From an uncultured Brachyspira sp. (GTDB lineage: Bacteria; Spirochaetota; Brachyspiria; Brachyspirales; Brachyspiraceae), in the NCBI RefSeq assembly GCF_944388875.1, contig NZ_CALXKQ010000004.1, positions 1 through 64,000 of the forward strand: a DNA stretch of 64,000 nt. The letters run 5' to 3'. Both the position numbers and the translations under genes were made by a program. Each line of letters opens with the position of its first letter. Position 1 is the first letter of the stretch. This document shows, piece after piece, positions 1 through 48,919 of this stretch. The notes beneath the pieces are model-generated. The model was not told the DNA's origin and did not search any database. It saw nothing but the letters and a program-made list of their open reading frames with translations.

Positions 1-832
1 TCTAATTAATTTTTCTGTTTAATAAAAAAAGCAAGCCCGCCCAAGTTATTATTAGATTTAAAATTCATTAACGCACGGTAAACAAAATTTTTTAATATAA
101 TAAAATTTGAATAGCATATAGATTTATATTTTTAATTTTACTCTGCGTGCGGTGAATAAAGACTCAAATTTAAAAATGCTTGGGTGGGTAGTGCTGTAAC
201 TGTTTGAAGCCAAAAAAATAATAATATAAAGATTACCAATGATATTAAAAACCTAAAGGGTGGGAAAATGTAAGTAAATTTTAAAAATTAATTACATACC
301 CCGCCCTTATAAATTTACTGCTTTTATAAAAAAAGCATTCTAATTAATTTTTCTGTTTAATAAAAAAAGCAAGCCCGCCCAAGTTATTATTAGATTTAAA
401 ATTCATTAACGCACGGTAAACAAAATTTTTTAATATAATAAAATTTGAATAGCATATAGATTTATATTTTTAATTTTACTCTGCGTGCGGTGAATAAAGA
501 CTCAAATTTAAAAATGCTTGGGTGGGTAGTGCTGTAACTGTTTGAAGCCAAAAAAATAATAATATAAAGATTACCAATGATATTAAAAACCTAAAGGGTG
601 GGAAAATGTAAGTAAATTTTAAAAATTAATTACATACCCCGCCCTTATAAATTTACTGCTTTTATAAAAAAAGCATTCTAATTAATTTTTCTGTTTAATA
701 AAAAAAGCAAGCCCGCCCAAGTTATTATTAGATTTAAAATTCATTAACGCACGGTAAACAAAATTTTTTAATATAATAAAATTTGAATAGCATATAGATT
801 TACATTTTTAATTTTATTCTGCGTGCGGTATT
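1..832. repeat. 338-bp tandem array of the dispersed intergenic repeat
   Basis: Units start at 1, 339 and 677 (period 338 bp). Two are complete and nearly identical; the third stops after the CTGCGTGCGGT motif near 830 and has a few substitutions. Each unit holds GCCCGCCCAAG, then CGCACGG, CTGCGTGCGG and CTTGGGTGGG, which form a nested inverted repeat. A second pair follows, AAGGGTGGG...ATGTAA against TTACAT...CCGCCCTT. There is no coding frame. The array begins at the window edge, so it may extend upstream. Confidence 0.9.
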
Positions 833-12073: not shown

Positions 12074-14432
<2,359 letters not shown>

Positions 14433-14438
14433 TTTAAT

Positions 14439-16496
14439 TTATGCCTCAAATTTTATTTTATTAGCTGCTGATATAATAATAGAAGCTAACCCAATAATAG
14501 TCATTGGTATTACAGCAAATATATATCTATATCCGCTATGAGGTGAATATAAAATAGTAATAAAAATAGTTGATATGCTTGAAGATGATATTGATAAAAC
14601 TAAAATATTTAAATTTACAGAACCCTTCTTCTTTATTAAAAATATTATTGATAAAATAAAACATATTAATGATATTATAAAAAAATATACAGGCTTTATA
14701 AATAAAATATCAAAAATATTTTTTTCAAGAAATATTAAAAATTGTTTTTCTTGTTCAGTATATTTAACTGCAAGTTCATTTTTAGGTATAAACTCTGCTA
14801 TTTTAGAACCATATAGATTATTATTATCAGAATCACTTCTTATTCTTTCTATACCAGGAAAAAACAATAATCCCTTTGCAAATATTAATTTATGATATAT
14901 ATATTCTTTAGGATATTTAAATACAATTTTTAACCAATATAATTTAAAATTATCTAAATCAGGTTCTAATAGATTATATCTGTTATCAGAATTCCAAATT
15001 AAATTATCTATAGTGTAATGAGAAAAACTAGATTTTATAGTTTCGAAATTTACTTTTTCACCGTATGCTGATTCAGGCAAAAGATCTTTATCTATTAAAT
15101 AGCTTATGGATAGTATATCATGCAATGGTATATGCCATGTCATTCCTTTGTTTCTTCCTTCTGGTATTAAAGAAGGATATGCCTTATACACAAATACTAA
15201 AAATATACAAATACATATAAAAGATTTTATAAAATTAAATATATATTGTTTAGATAAAAAATTATAATTGCACTTTAACAAATATACATGCACCCAATAA
15301 ATTAAAAATGGTGTTAATGTAACTATTGCTGTATGCGACCATAGGAAAGCAAATATAAATAGAAAACTTGTAATTAATAAAAATAAATTTGGAGATCTAT
15401 ATGAACCCAATTCCATAAATAGTATTATATTTAAATAAACCCAAATAAACATACTATAAGTATAATCTTTATGTAAATCTGGCAAGAACCACCATATATT
15501 TGAAAGAAATGTTAAAAAAATTAATAGAATAGAAAATAAACTTTTAGTTGTATTATAAACTGACATTATTAAAAATAATAAACCAATATACCATAATATT
15601 AAATTAATGAGGAAAAAATACCATACATGATTTCCAAATACTATATTTAAAATCCTAAAGAAAACAGATATGAAAACAGGAAAAATATGTGAAAAGTTTA
15701 TTATTCCCAAAGATTGAGGAAGTATATTTGAAGAGAAATCTCCAAAAATATAATTGCCAGGAAAAAATAGATTAAATCTAAATATTATTTCTATAATAGA
15801 AAAAACTAAACATGTAATAATTAATATTATATATTTTATATCTTTTTCTTTAAATAAAGAAAAAGTATTTTTTAATGCATAATTAAAATATTTTTTTAAT
15901 GTGATTTTATTATCTAAAGAATATAAAATTAAAATAATTTTCTTTACGTTATGAAATACTTTAGCAAAATATAATATAGGAATAATAATAAAGATAATAA
16001 TGAAAATTGATATTATATTGCTTTTTATTTTTAAAATATAATCAACATTATCTATCTTATCAAACTCTATTTTTTCAGAAGAAATTAAATTACCAAAAGG
16101 ACTTCCTTTATAAATATTAATTTCTTCAATAAAATCATTGTCTTTCAAAACTTTATTTGTGTCTATATAAACATTATAAATATCGCTATGCCTAAATACT
16201 TTATCATAATACTGAACTTTAAATCCATAGCTGTAATTAGTTATACTTTCATTTGTAAATATATAGTTTTTAATACCTTCTTCATCTAAGTTCCCATCTG
16301 CATTTATGAACTGATCTTTTATATACGATAAATTATTCAATTCTAAAGTTCTATTTATATGAGAAATATCAAATTTGAATTCACTTAAATATCCAATTCT
16401 TGCTTTTCTGCCAAGTATAGAAAGTGCTATAATAGATACAGCAGATATTATTATTAAAGATAAATATATTTTAAATAAAAATTTATTATTTTTCAT
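14439..16496 (-). CDS. large multi-pass envelope membrane protein (copy 1), GtrC-like partner
   Basis: This protein of about 685 residues has an N-terminal helix, an external domain of about 140 residues (starting RIGYLSEFKFDISH), and then 10 or more membrane segments. The architecture fits GT-C fold membrane glycosyltransferases, but I see no decisive motif. Residues 20-150 are almost identical to the protein at 18435-21128, also at DNA level (about 16074-16290 against 20701-20923). The later parts differ. An in-frame ATG 12 bases upstream exists; the ATG at 16496 is chosen because GGAG precedes it and it matches the paralogue start. Its 5' leader carries a (CAAA)12 tract in a short upstream ORF. 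Confidence 0.8.
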   Translation of the reverse strand: MKNNKFLFKIYLSLIIISAVSIIALSILGRKARIGYLSEFKFDISHINRTLELNNLSYIKDQFINADGNLDEEGIKNYIFTNESITNYSYGFKVQYYDKVFRHSDIYNVYIDTNKVLKDNDFIEEINIYKGSPFGNLISSEKIEFDKIDNVDYILKIKSNIISIFIIIFIIIPILYFAKVFHNVKKIILILYSLDNKITLKKYFNYALKNTFSLFKEKDIKYIILIITCLVFSIIEIIFRFNLFFPGNYIFGDFSSNILPQSLGIINFSHIFPVFISVFFRILNIVFGNHVWYFFLINLILWYIGLLFLIMSVYNTTKSLFSILLIFLTFLSNIWWFLPDLHKDYTYSMFIWVYLNIILFMELGSYRSPNLFLLITSFLFIFAFLWSHTAIVTLTPFLIYWVHVYLLKCNYNFLSKQYIFNFIKSFICICIFLVFVYKAYPSLIPEGRNKGMTWHIPLHDILSISYLIDKDLLPESAYGEKVNFETIKSSFSHYTIDNLIWNSDNRYNLLEPDLDNFKLYWLKIVFKYPKEYIYHKLIFAKGLLFFPGIERIRSDSDNNNLYGSKIAEFIPKNELAVKYTEQEKQFLIFLEKNIFDILFIKPVYFFIISLICFILSIIFLIKKKGSVNLNILVLSISSSSISTIFITILYSPHSGYRYIFAVIPMTIIGLASIIISAANKIKFEA

Positions 16497-16579
16497 AAAC
16501 TGCTCCATAAAATAAAGAGCTGTTTATAAAATAATTTTTTGCAATGAGTATAAATTTATTTAAATGAGTATAAATTTCT

Positions 16580-16651
16580 TTAGAAGAGTAAAACTTGAGG
16601 TTTGTTTGTTTGTTTGTTTGTTTGTTTGTTTGTTTGTTTGTTTGTTTGCAT
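16580..16651 (-). CDS. repeat-containing upstream ORF in the leader of membrane protein copy 1
   Basis: ATG (16651-16649) lies directly before the (CAAA)12 tract and is preceded by GGAAATTAT. It would encode a 23-residue peptide with QTNK repeats, ending at TAA 83 bases before the main start. Loss of one unit (11) or gain of two (14) would shift reading into a frame open past the main ATG, stopping just inside it. Translation is inferred only. Confidence 0.4.
   Translation of the reverse strand: MQTNKQTNKQTNKQTNKPQVLLF
16601..16648. repeat. tetranucleotide tract (TTTG)12, CAAA on the coding strand
   Basis: Twelve perfect TTTG units lie between the predicted promoter (16682-16710) and the start of the gene at 16496. 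They are thus transcribed, in the 5' leader. A matching tract of 14 units lies before the paralogue at 21218-21273. Confidence 0.97.
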
Positions 16652-16681
16652 ATAATTTCCGATATTATATTTACGGTTAGT

Positions 16682-16710
16682 AGTATACCATAATTATCAA
16701 AAACAGTCAA
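16682..16710 (-). promoter_or_regulatory. promoter of membrane protein copy 1
   Basis: On the minus strand, TTGACT (16710-16705), a 17-base spacer, and TATACT (16687-16682). Transcription should start near 16675, about 24 bases before the upstream ORF and the CAAA tract. The same promoter with the same spacer recurs at 21311-21339. Confidence 0.8.
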
Positions 16711-16823: not shown

Positions 16824-17536
16824 CTATTTTACTATTTTACAAATTGCCAATAAACTAGACCCAAATGGTAAATTAATTTTATTTAATAAATATTTTTCTA
16901 TATGAAATATTTTATATAAAAAATAATTAGTTAATCTTGAATTCCCATATTCAAATTTTTTTCTATTAAAAACTTTATCTGCTATCCTTACCAAAGCAAA
17001 TAATGGAAATAAAAAACAATTCATATATGATAATTTTTGTATTTCTAATCCGTTATCTTCTAAAACCTTTCTTAATCTTTTAGAATTATATCTTCTATAA
17101 TGACCATAAAATATATCAGAATTACTAAATAACCATTGATATGCCGGAACTGTAATTATAATAGTAGCATTCTCTTTTATCAATCTTTTTACCTCTTGTA
17201 AAAATCTATTTTCATCTTCTATATGTTCCATAACATCTAAAAAAGTAACTATATCAAAACTATTATCTTTAAAATTATTATCAAAAATATCTATATTTAA
17301 AATATTATTAAATAGTTTTTTTGGATAACTAAATTTTTCTATACCAACAGCGTTTTTAATATATTGAGAACTATCTTTTAATAAATGTCCATTACCGCAT
17401 CCAATATCTAGTAAACTGCAATTATTATGATCGCTAATATTTTTTATTATATATCTATAACAATTTCCCTTCTAACTCTAAACCACCATAGATTATCTTC
17501 TAAATCGTCTATATCATTATATGCTTTATCTTCCAT
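16824..17536 (-). pseudogene. class I SAM-dependent methyltransferase, frameshifted
   Basis: Read on the minus strand, the first part starts MEDKAYNDIDDLEDNLWWFRVRRE (given here in two pieces: MEDKAYNDID and DLEDNLWWFRVRRE) at 17536 and ends at a stop near 17447. The adjoining frame continues with YIIKNISDHNNCSLL, the SAM-binding motif LDIGCGNGHLL, FDIVTFLDVMEHIED, and the C-terminal RRYNSKRLRKVLEDNG to 16824. Joined, they give a complete methyltransferase of about 237 residues of the type found in glycan clusters. One base is missing near GGGAAATTG (about 17461-17470). It lies between the glycosyltransferase at 17650 and membrane protein copy 1. Either a true pseudogene or a sequencing error. 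Confidence 0.8.
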
Positions 17537-17649
17537 AGCATACCCCAAAGAAATATAGTGATAATAAATATTTAGAATAGTATAATATTGTACTTGGCAT
17601 AATTTATTTTCCTTTATTTTATTATAGAACAAAAATTAAATTATTTCAA

Positions 17650-18432
17650 TTATTTGGTTTTTAAATCATAATAACCAAATACTACTCTTATTAATTGCAC
17701 CATTATTTGTATGTTTCCAAAGAAATTTATTTTTGTAGGGATCTTTCCATTTTTAGGATACACTCTTGTTTGAGGTATTTCTATAACTTTATATCCCAAT
17801 TTTGGTATAATATTTGCTAAATACCATTGTGATTCCCAACTTGTAAATATATCTCTAAAAATAGCTATTCTATCATCATCTATTATCTTCATTGAAAAAC
17901 CTCTAAATGCTGACATTGTTTCAGTGTATTTAAAGCCTGAAGATAAAGATAATAATGGATTAGATATTAACTTTATTGCTAAGATTCTTGATAATGGTGT
18001 ATTTTTATGATATCCTCCTTTCATAAATCTTGAACCTTGTACAAAGTCATAACCTTTTTCTAACATCTCTACAAATTCCATAGTTTGTTCCACACTATCT
18101 TTATTGTTTCCGTCTACTGTAACTATTCCTTTATATTTTTCATCAGATACTTTAGAAAATCCTGCTTTATAGGCATTAGCCTGACCTTTCATTCTAATTG
18201 TAAGTACTGCTCTTACACCTATATCTTTTAAAAAATCATCTTCTATAGAACCATCTGTACTTCCTGCATCTAGTAAAAATATATCTATTTTTTTTGGTAT
18301 ATCTTTATTTTTTAAACGATTAAGCTCTATTTTTATTCGTTCACCTTCATTCCATGTAGGTATTAAAAGACAATATTCATTTATTTTCTTAAAATATTCT
18401 TTATATTCATAATGAGGTATTTGTCTTTCCAT
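17650..18432 (-). CDS. family 2 glycosyltransferase (DPM1-like)
   Basis: The 260-residue protein has a GT-A domain: LLIPTWNEGERI, FLLDAGSTDGS, KAGFSKVSDEKYKG, and VTVDGNNKD where relatives have DADLQ. There is no membrane segment, unlike the enzyme at 13500. The C-terminal half has the DPM1-type FVQGSRFMKGGYHKNTPLSR and GYKVIEIPQTRVYP. It probably transfers a nucleotide-sugar residue to a polyprenyl phosphate. The start is 2 bases after the stop of the large membrane protein upstream, so the two are translationally linked, in the same arrangement as 14439/13500. Confidence 0.87.
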   Translation of the reverse strand: MERQIPHYEYKEYFKKINEYCLLIPTWNEGERIKIELNRLKNKDIPKKIDIFLLDAGSTDGSIEDDFLKDIGVRAVLTIRMKGQANAYKAGFSKVSDEKYKGIVTVDGNNKDSVEQTMEFVEMLEKGYDFVQGSRFMKGGYHKNTPLSRILAIKLISNPLLSLSSGFKYTETMSAFRGFSMKIIDDDRIAIFRDIFTSWESQWYLANIIPKLGYKVIEIPQTRVYPKNGKIPTKINFFGNIQIMVQLIRVVFGYYDLKTK

Positions 18433-18434
18433 TT

Positions 18435-21128
18435 TTAAAGCCCTTTGGATAATCTATCATTAATTAATATAAATCCTGTGTTGAAATCTTCATTTTTTAT
18501 AAAATTAAATTTCATACCAGAACTATCCATATTTAGTTTATATACAAAATACTTTTGATTGTTTATATAAAAATCATAATCTGTAAATTGTACTCTATTA
18601 TCTGTATATAATTTTTTATACTCAATATCTGATATAAAGTAAAAATCATAATCCAATCTTAAATAAATTTTATTAACATTATCTTTAAGAGCTAATATTA
18701 ACCCTCCATTTATATTATTATCTATATTTGAAATAATACTTTTAGAATCCTTACTAATTTTTGAATTATTGCAAGCTATAATTGTATCATTTAGTGAATT
18801 ATTAGTAACTTCTATTTGTGCCAAAAGCTGCCTAACTTGTTTCACATTTCTAGACCAGTAAACTGCATAATTCCAAGATTCATCTGAATTATAATTTTTA
18901 AAAAACAAATTAACAAATCTAATACCATTATCTTTTCCGTATGAGAATGTTTTCCACATATCTATATCATATACATAGTCTGAATTTACAGGAGTATAAT
19001 ATTGTGAGTGTATATTAGTTATCAAGATTTTTATTGATATAATAAATAGAATTATAAATAATATATATTTTAATATTTTTATATTAGGCAAAATATTAAA
19101 TATATATCTTATCAATAGAAATATAGAAAAAATAAACAAAGAAACAGTAATAAGTCTGTCAGCCCCTCCATTTCTTAATGCTATAATAAAAACCAATGAA
19201 AATATAATTAATATTATATTAAGCATAAAATTAATTGTAACTATATTTTTAAATAATACTTTCTTATTTTTTATAATATATGTAAACAAAAATGAAGATA
19301 ATATTATTATCAAAATTACTCCAAATAATGCCTTCTTAGTATAAGACGAATATATACTGCTTCCGCCAACAAATGCCATAATTGATCCGCCTGCATAAGA
19401 AAATATATATGTTGTTAATAAAGAATTAAATGCCATTGGTAATAATAATGAGAATAAAATAGTAAGAAAACATGACAAAACATACAAAATAAAATTATTT
19501 AATAAAATTTTTTCAATGCCATTAGTTCTTATAATATTATGCTTTACCATAAAAGTAATTACAGATAAAATAATAAAAAATACAGGTGTTATAATTTGGC
19601 TGTAAATAAGTAAATTTTTACTAATAACATTAATAAAAGCAGAAGATAACAGCATATCATTTTTAATTGCTATAGGAATAAATATATTGATTAATATTAC
19701 AAAAATTGTTATAAATATTAATATATTTGAAATATTACCTATATTTTTATCTTCATTATAATAAAAATATTTATCTAAATTAAGCAGTATATAAATTATA
19801 AAAATACCTATAATCCATCCAGCTATCATAATTTTTGAAAGTACAGCAGCACCTACAAAAATACCAGATAAAATTAATAAAAGTTTATGTTTATTATCAC
19901 ATAAATTATCGGTGTTAGATGAAGATATGACAAAATAAAGAGATATAGATGCTAATAGTAAGCCTATACCCTCATACCTTATTACTGTGTTTAGACCATT
20001 ACCAGCATCAAAAACAAATTTAGACATTGATAAAATAATTAATAATGATAAGCTAAAAATAAATATAACAAATCTATTTTTTACAATATTTTGAATTTGC
20101 ATTACTCTAATAATATTTATATACATTATTGTAATGAATAAAAAAAATGATGATCTGCATATCATTAAAATATATTCTGTAAATTCAACAAATGATAAAT
20201 ATGGATTTAGACTGTTTTCTAATTCTGTTATATTAGATGCTGATATTATTTTAAAAATATTCCCTATTGGAATAAATATATATTTATATAATACTAACGG
20301 AATCATATTAGGATGTAAAAGATGCTCTGGAAATAAATTACTAGAAACTAATAATATATCTTTTGCATATATTTGAGATGAATCCCAAGCTCTATAGTAT
20401 GGAGCAGATGAATAAATAGATTCATAAAATATAAATATGAATGGAAAAAAAATTAAAAATGCAGCTATATATATATTATTAGACCCTAAATCTTTTACTG
20501 TATTAAATTTATGTACCTTAATATGCTTATCAAAAAAGTTATTAAAAAATTCAATAATATAATTCATTATTGGGAATATAAGTTTTATTATAAGCGGAAG
20601 TAATATATACAATATTAGAATAGAATATAATATTATTAATAGTATAATAATAGATGCTTTTAATTTTAAAGTGTATTTAACATTATCTATCTTATCAGAC
20701 TCTATTTTTTCAGAAGAAATTAAATTACCGAAAGGATTTCCTTTATAAATATTAATTTCTTCAATAAAATCATTGTCTTTCAAAACTTTATTTGTGTCTA
20801 TATAAACATTATAAATATCGCTATGCCTAAATACTTTATCATAATACTGAACTTTAAATCCATAGCTGTAATTAGTTATACTTTCATTTGTAAATATATA
20901 GTTTTTAATGCCTTCTTCATCTAATATTCTATCTTTAGTAAAGAGTTCTTTTATATATGATAAATTATTTAATTCTAAAGTTCTATTTATATGAGAAATA
21001 TCAAATTTGAATTCACTTAAATATCCTATTCTAGGCTTGTTTCCAAGTACAGAAAATAATATAGCAGCAGAAGATATTATTATTAATAATGGTATATATA
21101 TTTTGAAGAATAGTTTATTGTTTTTCAT
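18435..21128 (-). CDS. large multi-pass envelope membrane protein (copy 2)
   Basis: The 897-residue protein has an N-terminal helix, an external domain of about 140 residues nearly identical to that of the protein at 14439, then about 14 membrane segments and a C-terminal external domain of about 170 residues (from NIHSQYYTPVNSDYVYDID). This layout is usual for GT-C glycosyltransferases or surface-glycan assembly proteins, but no catalytic motif is certain. The identical N-terminal parts and identical promoters suggest recent conversion between copies. The leader carries a (CAAA)14 tract in a short ORF. GGAT lies before the ATG. Confidence 0.8.
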   Translation of the reverse strand: MKNNKLFFKIYIPLLIIISSAAILFSVLGNKPRIGYLSEFKFDISHINRTLELNNLSYIKELFTKDRILDEEGIKNYIFTNESITNYSYGFKVQYYDKVFRHSDIYNVYIDTNKVLKDNDFIEEINIYKGNPFGNLISSEKIESDKIDNVKYTLKLKASIIILLIILYSILILYILLPLIIKLIFPIMNYIIEFFNNFFDKHIKVHKFNTVKDLGSNNIYIAAFLIFFPFIFIFYESIYSSAPYYRAWDSSQIYAKDILLVSSNLFPEHLLHPNMIPLVLYKYIFIPIGNIFKIISASNITELENSLNPYLSFVEFTEYILMICRSSFFLFITIMYINIIRVMQIQNIVKNRFVIFIFSLSLLIILSMSKFVFDAGNGLNTVIRYEGIGLLLASISLYFVISSSNTDNLCDNKHKLLLILSGIFVGAAVLSKIMIAGWIIGIFIIYILLNLDKYFYYNEDKNIGNISNILIFITIFVILINIFIPIAIKNDMLLSSAFINVISKNLLIYSQIITPVFFIILSVITFMVKHNIIRTNGIEKILLNNFILYVLSCFLTILFSLLLPMAFNSLLTTYIFSYAGGSIMAFVGGSSIYSSYTKKALFGVILIIILSSFLFTYIIKNKKVLFKNIVTINFMLNIILIIFSLVFIIALRNGGADRLITVSLFIFSIFLLIRYIFNILPNIKILKYILFIILFIISIKILITNIHSQYYTPVNSDYVYDIDMWKTFSYGKDNGIRFVNLFFKNYNSDESWNYAVYWSRNVKQVRQLLAQIEVTNNSLNDTIIACNNSKISKDSKSIISNIDNNINGGLILALKDNVNKIYLRLDYDFYFISDIEYKKLYTDNRVQFTDYDFYINNQKYFVYKLNMDSSGMKFNFIKNEDFNTGFILINDRLSKGL

Positions 21129-21211
21129 AAACTATATCCAAAAATAAATAAGTAGATATTTGAAAATAAGATTTTTCTGCAACGAAGATAAATTTATTTA
21201 GAAGAATAAAA

Positions 21212-21280
21212 TTAATGTTTGTTTGTTTGTTTGTTTGTTTGTTTGTTTGTTTGTTTGTTTGTTTGTTTGTTTGTTTTCAT
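21212..21280 (-). CDS. repeat-containing upstream ORF in the leader of membrane protein copy 2
   Basis: ATG (21280-21278), preceded by TTGGAAATTAT, reads AAAA then 14 CAAA units and stops at once at TAA (22 residues). With 13 or 16 units the frame would stay open for about 33 codons and end just past the main ATG at 21128. The same organisation is found in copy 1. Translation is inferred only. Confidence 0.4.
   Translation of the reverse strand: MKTNKQTNKQTNKQTNKQTNKH
21218..21273. repeat. tetranucleotide tract (TTTG)14, CAAA on the coding strand
   Basis: Fourteen perfect units lie in the transcribed leader of membrane protein copy 2, between the promoter at 21311-21339 and the ATG at 21128. 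Such tracts change length by slipped-strand mispairing. Confidence 0.97.
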
Positions 21281-21310: not shown

Positions 21311-21339
21311 AGTATACCATAATTATCAAAAACAGTCAA
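21311..21339 (-). promoter_or_regulatory. promoter of membrane protein copy 2
   Basis: On the minus strand, TTGACT (21339-21334), a 17-base spacer, and TATACT (21316-21311). It is nearly identical to the promoter at 16682-16710, including flanks, showing that the regulatory region was duplicated with the gene. Confidence 0.8.
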
Positions 21340-48094: not shown

Positions 48095-48753
48095 TTAATT
48101 AGAAACTTTCAAAGCCTTATCTATCAAAATCTTAAACCTAAAAACAGCATAATTAAGACCTAACCTCAAATAATCATCTTCATCATAACGGCAATATACA
48201 AATCTTCCGCTTATTATCTGATACCAAGCCTCAAGTATTATCTTATTCCAAAACAAAGAAGCAGTATACAAACTTATAAGACAGTCATTAAAATAACAAA
48301 AGTCATCATATTTAACTTCTTTATTATTAAAAGCATAACTTACAAGATTATCAATTTCTGTCTGCTCTATTATAGAAAAATTAGATAAATTACTCGCTAC
48401 ATAATTCTTCTCTCTAGCAAAAAACTTTTTATCACCTGTGCAAACTCATTAATATCTTTAGTACTCCATTCATCGAGAAGACTTACAGCAAGAGTCCCAT
48501 TTATTCTAACATCAAGCCATTTAAAAATATCATCATCAATAATCTTCTCTTCTTTCTCTCTTACATATTTAATATTTTCATTGAAGCTTGGACGATTAAT
48601 ACTTATAATATCATCGCTTTTAAACTTACTTCCTAAAGTAGAGCGGCTGAATACTTTAACAGGTACAATATTTTCTCCGTCATCTTTATAAACAATTTCT
48701 TCTACAATATATCTATTAAAAAAATCAACGCATTTAAATTCTAACTTTTCCAT
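48095..48753 (-). CDS. tail assembly chaperone GT fusion, made by -1 frameshift
   Basis: Downstream of the G gene an open frame without any usual start codon runs from the slippery site to a TAA at 48095 (107 residues, starting ARE). Its frame is -1 relative to G. A shift at T TTT TTG (48424-48418) joins codon 112 of G to it, giving about 219 residues. This reproduces the G/GT pair found before the tape measure gene in phage lambda and many siphoviruses. The extension ends 41 bases before the tape measure ATG. Confidence 0.75.
48397..48753 (-). CDS. tail assembly chaperone G-like protein
   Basis: The 118-residue acidic protein (start EKLEFKCVDFFNRYIVEE) lies just before the tape measure gene and ends a few codons after the slippery heptamer. 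Position, size and the overlap with a -1 open frame identify it as a tail assembly chaperone, although sequence similarity is not recognisable. AAGGAG precedes the ATG. A 45-bp segment with this binding site is repeated 77 bases upstream. Confidence 0.75.
   Translation of the reverse strand: MEKLEFKCVDFFNRYIVEEIVYKDDGENIVPVKVFSRSTLGSKFKSDDIISINRPSFNENIKYVREKEEKIIDDDIFKWLDVRINGTLAVSLLDEWSTKDINEFAQVIKSFLLERRIM
48418..48424 (-). other. slippery heptamer T TTT TTG for -1 frameshifting
   Basis: In the G frame the codons are AGT TTT TTG. Slipping back one base re-pairs Phe and Leu tRNAs on TTT TTT and continues GCT AGA GAG into an open frame of 107 codons. The site is at 6 codons before the G stop. 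Confidence 0.75.
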
Positions 48754-48756
48754 TTG

Positions 48757-48880
48757 AAATTCTCCTTAATTTTTTCACTGATAGGCTATGACAATTACAT
48801 TGTCATAGGTTCAAAAATATAAGGAGTTTTTTTAAATTCTCCTTAATTTTTTCACTCATAGGCTATGACAATTATATTTT
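48757..48880. repeat. direct repeat and palindrome before the chaperone gene
   Basis: Two 45-bp copies (48757-48801 and 48834-48878), differing at a few bases, each contain the ribosome binding site of the G gene. The first copy forms a perfect 10-bp palindrome with following bases (CTATGACAAT, 48786-48795, and ATTGTCATAG, 48799-48808). Confidence 0.8.
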
Positions 48881-48919
48881 TATACATTCAAAATAATTAT
48901 TAAAAAATTTAAAATAAAA

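Follow-up and report, generated by a model that had tools for sequence, protein, structure and literature searches.

Two paralogous cassettes and their genes

The window, by which we mean the whole 64,000-nucleotide stretch of DNA analyzed, comes from Brachyspira, a genus of intestinal spirochaetes. It contains two paralogous cassettes (A and B) located 4.6 kb apart, with similar promoters, leaders and N-terminal regions. All elements of both lie on the minus strand, in the common order of promoter, SD, ATG, (CAAA)n, a spacer of ~90–100 nt, SD, the ATG of a polytopic membrane protein, and a GT2 gene. Cassette B was absent from the initial annotation. The features are as follows:

13500–14432, minus strand: GT2 glycosyltransferase gene (PgfS/ArnC-like), directly 3' of gene A (PF00535, 1.8e-31)
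14439–16496, minus strand: main gene A, whose product is a polytopic 685-aa membrane protein (689 aa from 16508) with ~11 hydrophobic segments
16580–16651, minus strand: upstream ORF (uORF) A as assembled, 12 units, 23 codons plus stop, GGAA upstream
16601–16648, minus strand: (CAAA)12 tract A, immediately after the uORF ATG (16651–16649)
16682–16710, minus strand: promoter A (TTGACT, 17 nt, TATACT), 10/12 consensus matches, position relative to the uORF ATG kept in most relatives
17650–18432, minus strand: GT2 glycosyltransferase gene, directly 3' of gene B (PF00535, 9.9e-10)
18435–21128, minus strand: main gene B, whose product is a polytopic 897-aa membrane protein
21212–21280, minus strand: uORF B as assembled, 22 codons plus stop, the stop 83 nt ahead of the main ATG
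21216–21276, minus strand: CAAA tract B, before the 897-aa gene, 14 full units plus flanking partial units (~14–15)
21311–21339, minus strand: promoter B (TTGACT, 17 nt, TATACT), paralogous to promoter A

Leader A runs from the promoter (16710–16682) through GGAAATTAT-ATG, (CAAA)12 and a 103-nt spacer to the main ATG at 16496. As assembled with 12 units, its uORF encodes MQTN...VLLF* and ends at 16580, with the stop 83 nt ahead of the main ATG. Eleven units leave 37 codons open beyond the tract, up to a TAA stop at +11, and 13 units place the stop at –63. One phase of the three is coupled, in the sense that its frame runs from the tract to the main start, and the same holds for leader B. The initial annotation had claimed this promoter, an ATG followed by 12 CAAA units upstream of the main start, a small-ORF stop 83 bases before the gene, a frame of about 37 codons ending just past the main ATG after the loss of one unit, and an early stop in the third frame. 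The promoter was present, the tract and the early stop were confirmed, and both distances proved exact. A 20-base tandem duplication in the leader A spacer (16543–16590), lacking in relatives, accompanies the loss of one of two coupled frames.

The long ORF of gene A has an earlier in-frame ATG at 16508. The start at 16496 is likelier, because GGAG lies just upstream and the paralogue aligns there. The N-terminal region of protein B is 83% identical to that of A over ~155 aa. Members of the family share an N-terminal part of ~190 residues, a soluble segment between hydrophobic segments, which is followed by divergent polytopic parts; in relatives that share this part, DUF2142 or DUF7657/DUF7654 was detected in it. 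Proteins A and B had no match to Pfam, NCBIfam or PDB profiles and nothing credible in the PDB. A related-locus search with protein A gave no match, close genomes possibly not being covered, and the AlphaFold2 model of the membrane protein was unusable (pLDDT 41). For the GT2 neighbor of gene A, the NCBIfam PgfS and PRK10714 matches were below the cut-offs. Since a GT2 gene adjoins, the role of a membrane glycosyltransferase in a surface glycan is plausible, but it has not been shown. The "large envelope protein" of the initial annotation stands as a polytopic membrane protein, with the refinement that it adjoins a glycosyltransferase gene.

Carriage by a plasmid, phage or virus was rejected, as the searches returned no relevant match. 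Between the cassettes lies an apparently frameshifted class I methyltransferase gene (16824–17562, minus strand), the start of which (MEDKAYNDIDDLEDNLWWFRVRREIVIDI) and the remainder (LLDIGCGNGHLL...) are in different frames. At the contig edge, window positions 1–829 hold a 338-bp tandem repeat (2.5 copies, 99% identical), and a 77-bp tandem repeat (2.1 copies) was found at 48752–48913.

Spread of the leader and replacement of its unit

Relatives of protein A were detected in 25/25 genus genomes searched and in 0/16 genomes from other genera. Of 26 genus genomes, 17 contain CAAA tracts of at least six units, and a spacer profile built on sequence alone matched 25, some of the matches being weak. 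The leader set comprised the CAAA tract sites and the leaders retrieved with this profile. At 28 of ~31 tract sites, an ATG stands 0–2 nt before the tract, and an SD-like motif is seen in nearly all, weak in some copies. At the remaining sites the ATG has been lost or the assembly has a gap. In most leaders, the spacing between a promoter-like site and the uORF ATG varies little. The median identity among leaders is 66%, and they form six groups at 75%. At this level of identity they are related but long diverged, and being homologous, the loci are not independent.

Unit numbers range from 8 to 42, and the tracts are ~30–170 nt long; the comparison was made among loci and species, with one genome per species. 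Several contigs end at tracts or have Ns inside them, so some of the counts are unreliable. This would be expected of a neutral microsatellite or an assembly artefact. However, both tracts of the window are short, at 49 nt for A and 61 nt for B, and the position, the ATG and the frames are conserved genus-wide. Moreover, 7 of the 12 ATG(AAAC)7 records in a collection of 84,980 species belong to Brachyspira. We therefore regard such an origin as scarcely credible.

Two separated leader halves and two apparently broken genes were encountered. At L081 and L082 (genome G023, contig C11, ~262.5 kb and 481.7 kb), the upstream and downstream halves of a leader lie ~219 kb apart in opposite orientation, each fused at the tract to other sequence, which may reflect either an inversion between tracts or a misassembly. 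At L090 and L097, tracts of 28 and 20 units precede a gene that ends after 18 codons; the switch has been retained there though the gene appears to be broken.

In five homologous leaders, a 7-base unit replaces the 4-base unit in ~8 to 17 copies (AAGCAAC, in any rotation, in four; AAACAAC in one). These tracts can still be read through by an ORF starting at the ATG, and each of the five leaders still has one coupled frame or two. Counting the 4-base unit and the two heptamers, three different units were found at the same leader position. Both 4 and 7 are 1 mod 3, which suggests that the reading frame is what counts rather than the repeat sequence or the distance. One of the five lies in the window genome and is read through to +11 as assembled, making it a candidate for a third switch there, as far as its sequence can tell:

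L105 positions 528–606 (contig C2 of the window genome, ~141927–142005): (AAGCAAC)11 heptanucleotide tract in a homologous leader

The tract could also act through its length instead of its frame, by an effect on the leader or the promoter. It does sit in the leader, and there is a precedent in the AGAT repeats of uspA2 (PMC7302503). On the other hand, it lies downstream of the promoter, its length varies from ~30 to 170 nt, and neither open frames nor an ATG at the tract would be predicted. We find tuning by length very doubtful.

Some leaders deviate from the common design. At L083 the spacer is deleted and every frame is coupled, and at L087, in another genome, the tract is fused directly to the coding frame, as in the classical in-gene design. 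In other phyla, ATG(AAAC)n is mostly inside the gene. In records from a Syntrophomonadaceae bacterium, a Bacteroidetes bacterium, a gammaproteobacterium and Methylobacter (L124, L127, L128 and L130), a different repeat number opens a long ORF, an apparent case of in-gene phase variation. Two further Brachyspira leaders (L098 and L099) precede genes that, from a reading of the sequence, are apparent GT2 genes, and the switch therefore appears to be modular.

Reading frames and predicted hairpins at the main start

For the 28 tract-bearing leaders with a spacer, we counted the frames that stay open beyond the tract and stop between –12 and +15 nt relative to the main start. The result was 47 of 84, as compared with an expectation of 7.4 and a maximum of 14 in 1000 dinucleotide shuffles of the spacer that left its final 16 nt and the main start unchanged. 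Twenty of the 28 loci have at least two coupled frames (0.36 expected), and 27 are coupled in at least one phase. The –12/+15 window was picked after the data had been seen; a stricter earlier test left the answer unchanged (both frames open in 14/22 loci vs 0.10 expected). As a control, both frames were open in 0/30 window genes with non-coding upstream DNA. Stops at both +4 and +11 are present in 15/39 window genes, and these stops are partly owed to the common start ATGAAAAATAA. For locus A alone, a single open coupled frame gave a shuffle P of 0.13. By itself this locus is not remarkable; the frame signal is highly significant only genus-wide.

The usual leader has two coupled frames, with stops at +4 (as ATGA) and at ~+11, and its third frame, the one used by the main gene, ends between –63 and –90 (~–70). 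Because this layout couples two phases of three, the one-of-three coupling in the window looks like a derived state on comparison of the leaders. The frame switch through a leader ORF claimed initially is supported by the comparison; the single coupled phase is not the rule: the genus usually couples two. A fusion of the uORF product to the membrane protein was ruled out, as frame 0 always stops before the gene and never enters it in any leader with a spacer.

Folding calculations yielded predicted hairpins over the main SD in both cassettes:

16495–16527, minus strand: hairpin A (predicted), the arm 16517–16527 pairing with 16495–16505; P(SD paired) 0.99, z –2.3
21105–21139, minus strand: hairpin B (predicted), enclosing the SD of gene B and its start; P(SD paired) 0.97, z –2.7

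Hairpin A is predicted to cover most of the SD GGAG (16503–16506) and part of the start codon (16494–16496). In A the other arm is upstream of the SD, whereas in B it lies inside the gene (21105–21118). In 22 leaders, the local folding energy was lower than in 45 control genes (p = 0.0008; lowest z, –8.5), and the predicted SD pairing was higher (p = 0.02). The main SD was predicted to be hidden in both A and B and in roughly half of the leaders; in this prediction for 22 leaders, no hidden SD was found in L089, L093, L096, L098 and L099. The partner strand of the hairpin differs between loci, and the structures may have originated repeatedly. An Rfam search of the leader revealed no known RNA family, the sole match being at chance level.

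These structures bear on the sign of the switch. Ribosomes leaving the uORF could block initiation as they cross the main SD and start, so that the early-stop phase would be ON. The coupled frames do have a 4–14-nt overlap with the start, and a strong hairpin is missing in some leaders. But the main SD is predicted to be hidden in many copies, including A and B, and initiation should therefore be poor without passing ribosomes. The ATGA overlaps are, in addition, a classical layout for re-initiation. We consider this inverted sign unlikely, while keeping it in mind.

The effect could also arise at the RNA level, if an early stop left the leader RNA untranslated and exposed it to premature transcription termination or decay, with re-initiation being secondary. 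The uncoupled phase indeed leaves ~60–90 nt of untranslated RNA ahead of the gene, and identical frame conservation would be predicted. Such an effect, however, needs neither stops at the start codon nor hidden SDs, and we judge it improbable as the main cause.

Proposed switch and comparison with known systems

With the layout, the conserved frames, the exchange of the unit and the predicted hairpins established here, we propose phase variation by translational coupling through the reading frame of the leader ORF. In the absence of expression data, we put the probability of this reading at roughly 0.7. The sigma-70-like promoter would give an mRNA with a uORF starting at the ATG directly before the tract. 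The tract has no stop in any frame, and each unit of 4 or 7 bases would shift the exit frame by one. In a coupled phase, ribosomes from the uORF would get as far as the main start, terminating at +4 (ATGA) or ~+11; on their way through the hairpin they would open it over the main SD, and then re-initiate, so that the membrane protein is produced, probably together with the glycosyltransferase encoded downstream. Ribosomes in the uncoupled phase would stop ~60–90 nt upstream and end ahead of the hairpin, which would remain closed, with low expression. Slipped-strand mispairing would alter n and flip the state. Translation of the uORF, the identity of the ON phase, slippage, reversibility and unit change within a strain are inferred, and the assignment of coupled as ON rests on predicted hairpins and general knowledge.

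As assembled, A and B (frame 1, stop at –83) are predicted to be OFF and the heptanucleotide locus, read to +11, to be ON. Among loci with a readable start, 16 were in a coupled and 8 in an uncoupled phase, as expected if the phases are random and fall on loci mostly with two coupled frames. The initial annotation had proposed that the number of repeats determines if ribosomes finish close to the main start, and had called this a translational-coupling type of phase variation. Its proposal gains support from the ATG found immediately ahead of the tract at almost every tract locus, from frames ending at the main start that are retained far above chance, from the change of a 4-base to a 7-base unit with the frame arithmetic kept, and from the many copies in which the main SD is predicted to be hidden. 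The comparative sequence data give good support to a uORF switch that depends on the frame. The broader notion of a genus-wide modular uORF cassette, biased to ON and reused with different membrane-protein/GT2 genes while the unit is exchanged and the frame arithmetic kept, seems to us somewhat better than an even bet.

Simple-repeat phase variation is usually ascribed to in-gene frames or promoter effects, and a conserved switch acting through a uORF would escape surveys confined to ORF interiors. If the proposal is true, simple-repeat phase variation takes effect through translational coupling at several loci in a genome, and Brachyspira would practice multi-locus bet-hedging for probable surface-glycan genes. 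Two ON phases in three would alter the expected ON/OFF balance. Our literature search, outside the coverage of which most subscription-journal papers fall, found no description of a uORF repeat switch and nothing relevant on phase variation or repeats in Brachyspira. The Brachyspira genome papers searched did not mention such tracts. No paper combining coupling with tetranucleotide phase variation was found, the nearest matches not being cases.

The closest system in principle is lex2A–lex2B of Haemophilus influenzae, where the repeat is in a small ORF upstream of a glycosyltransferase gene. It is the nearest single-locus precedent, restricted to one locus in a different phylum; to our knowledge, it has no genus-wide leader family and no unit swap. 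A CAAG tract in lex2A has been listed, and nearly all such tetranucleotide tracts of H. influenzae fall within ORFs, either at the start or immediately downstream of it (PMC2651432). The Brachyspira leaders qualify as simple-repeat loci, with units of 4 or 7 bases (not multiples of 3) located 0–2 nt after an ATG in nearly all copies. They resemble the lic/mod type of H. influenzae in having a tetranucleotide tract beside a start codon, a unit number that sets the frame, and, probably, surface genes. In contrast to lic/mod, a short ORF of its own holds the tract, the main protein has the same sequence in every phase, and two phases of three are usually coupled. The in-gene design does not apply, as the main-gene frame is closed upstream in all leaders with a spacer.

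Tetranucleotide tracts outside the main ORF are also found at uspA2 of Moraxella catarrhalis, where AGAT repeats upstream of the ORF tune the mRNA and act on transcription (PMC7302503), and at nadA of Neisseria meningitidis, where the tract likewise acts on transcription (PMC2791445). The Brachyspira tract, by contrast, is inside a putatively translated frame and downstream of the promoter. Since it follows the predicted –10 element and the uORF ATG, promoter spacing of the nadA type does not apply. The gtr-type cassettes (GT-C with a GtrB-like GT2) likewise place a polytopic membrane protein beside an ArnC/PgfS-like GT2 gene, but A and B have no sequence match to a known glycosyltransferase family, and the resemblance is in layout only.

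GeneTack keeps phase variation and coupling as separate classes (PMC3711429). The leaders share with translational coupling an upstream stop that overlaps or adjoins the next start and, by prediction in A, B and about half of them, an SD that would be hidden without upstream translation. What would set them apart from ordinary coupling is that, in our proposal, it is conditional on a hypermutable tract.
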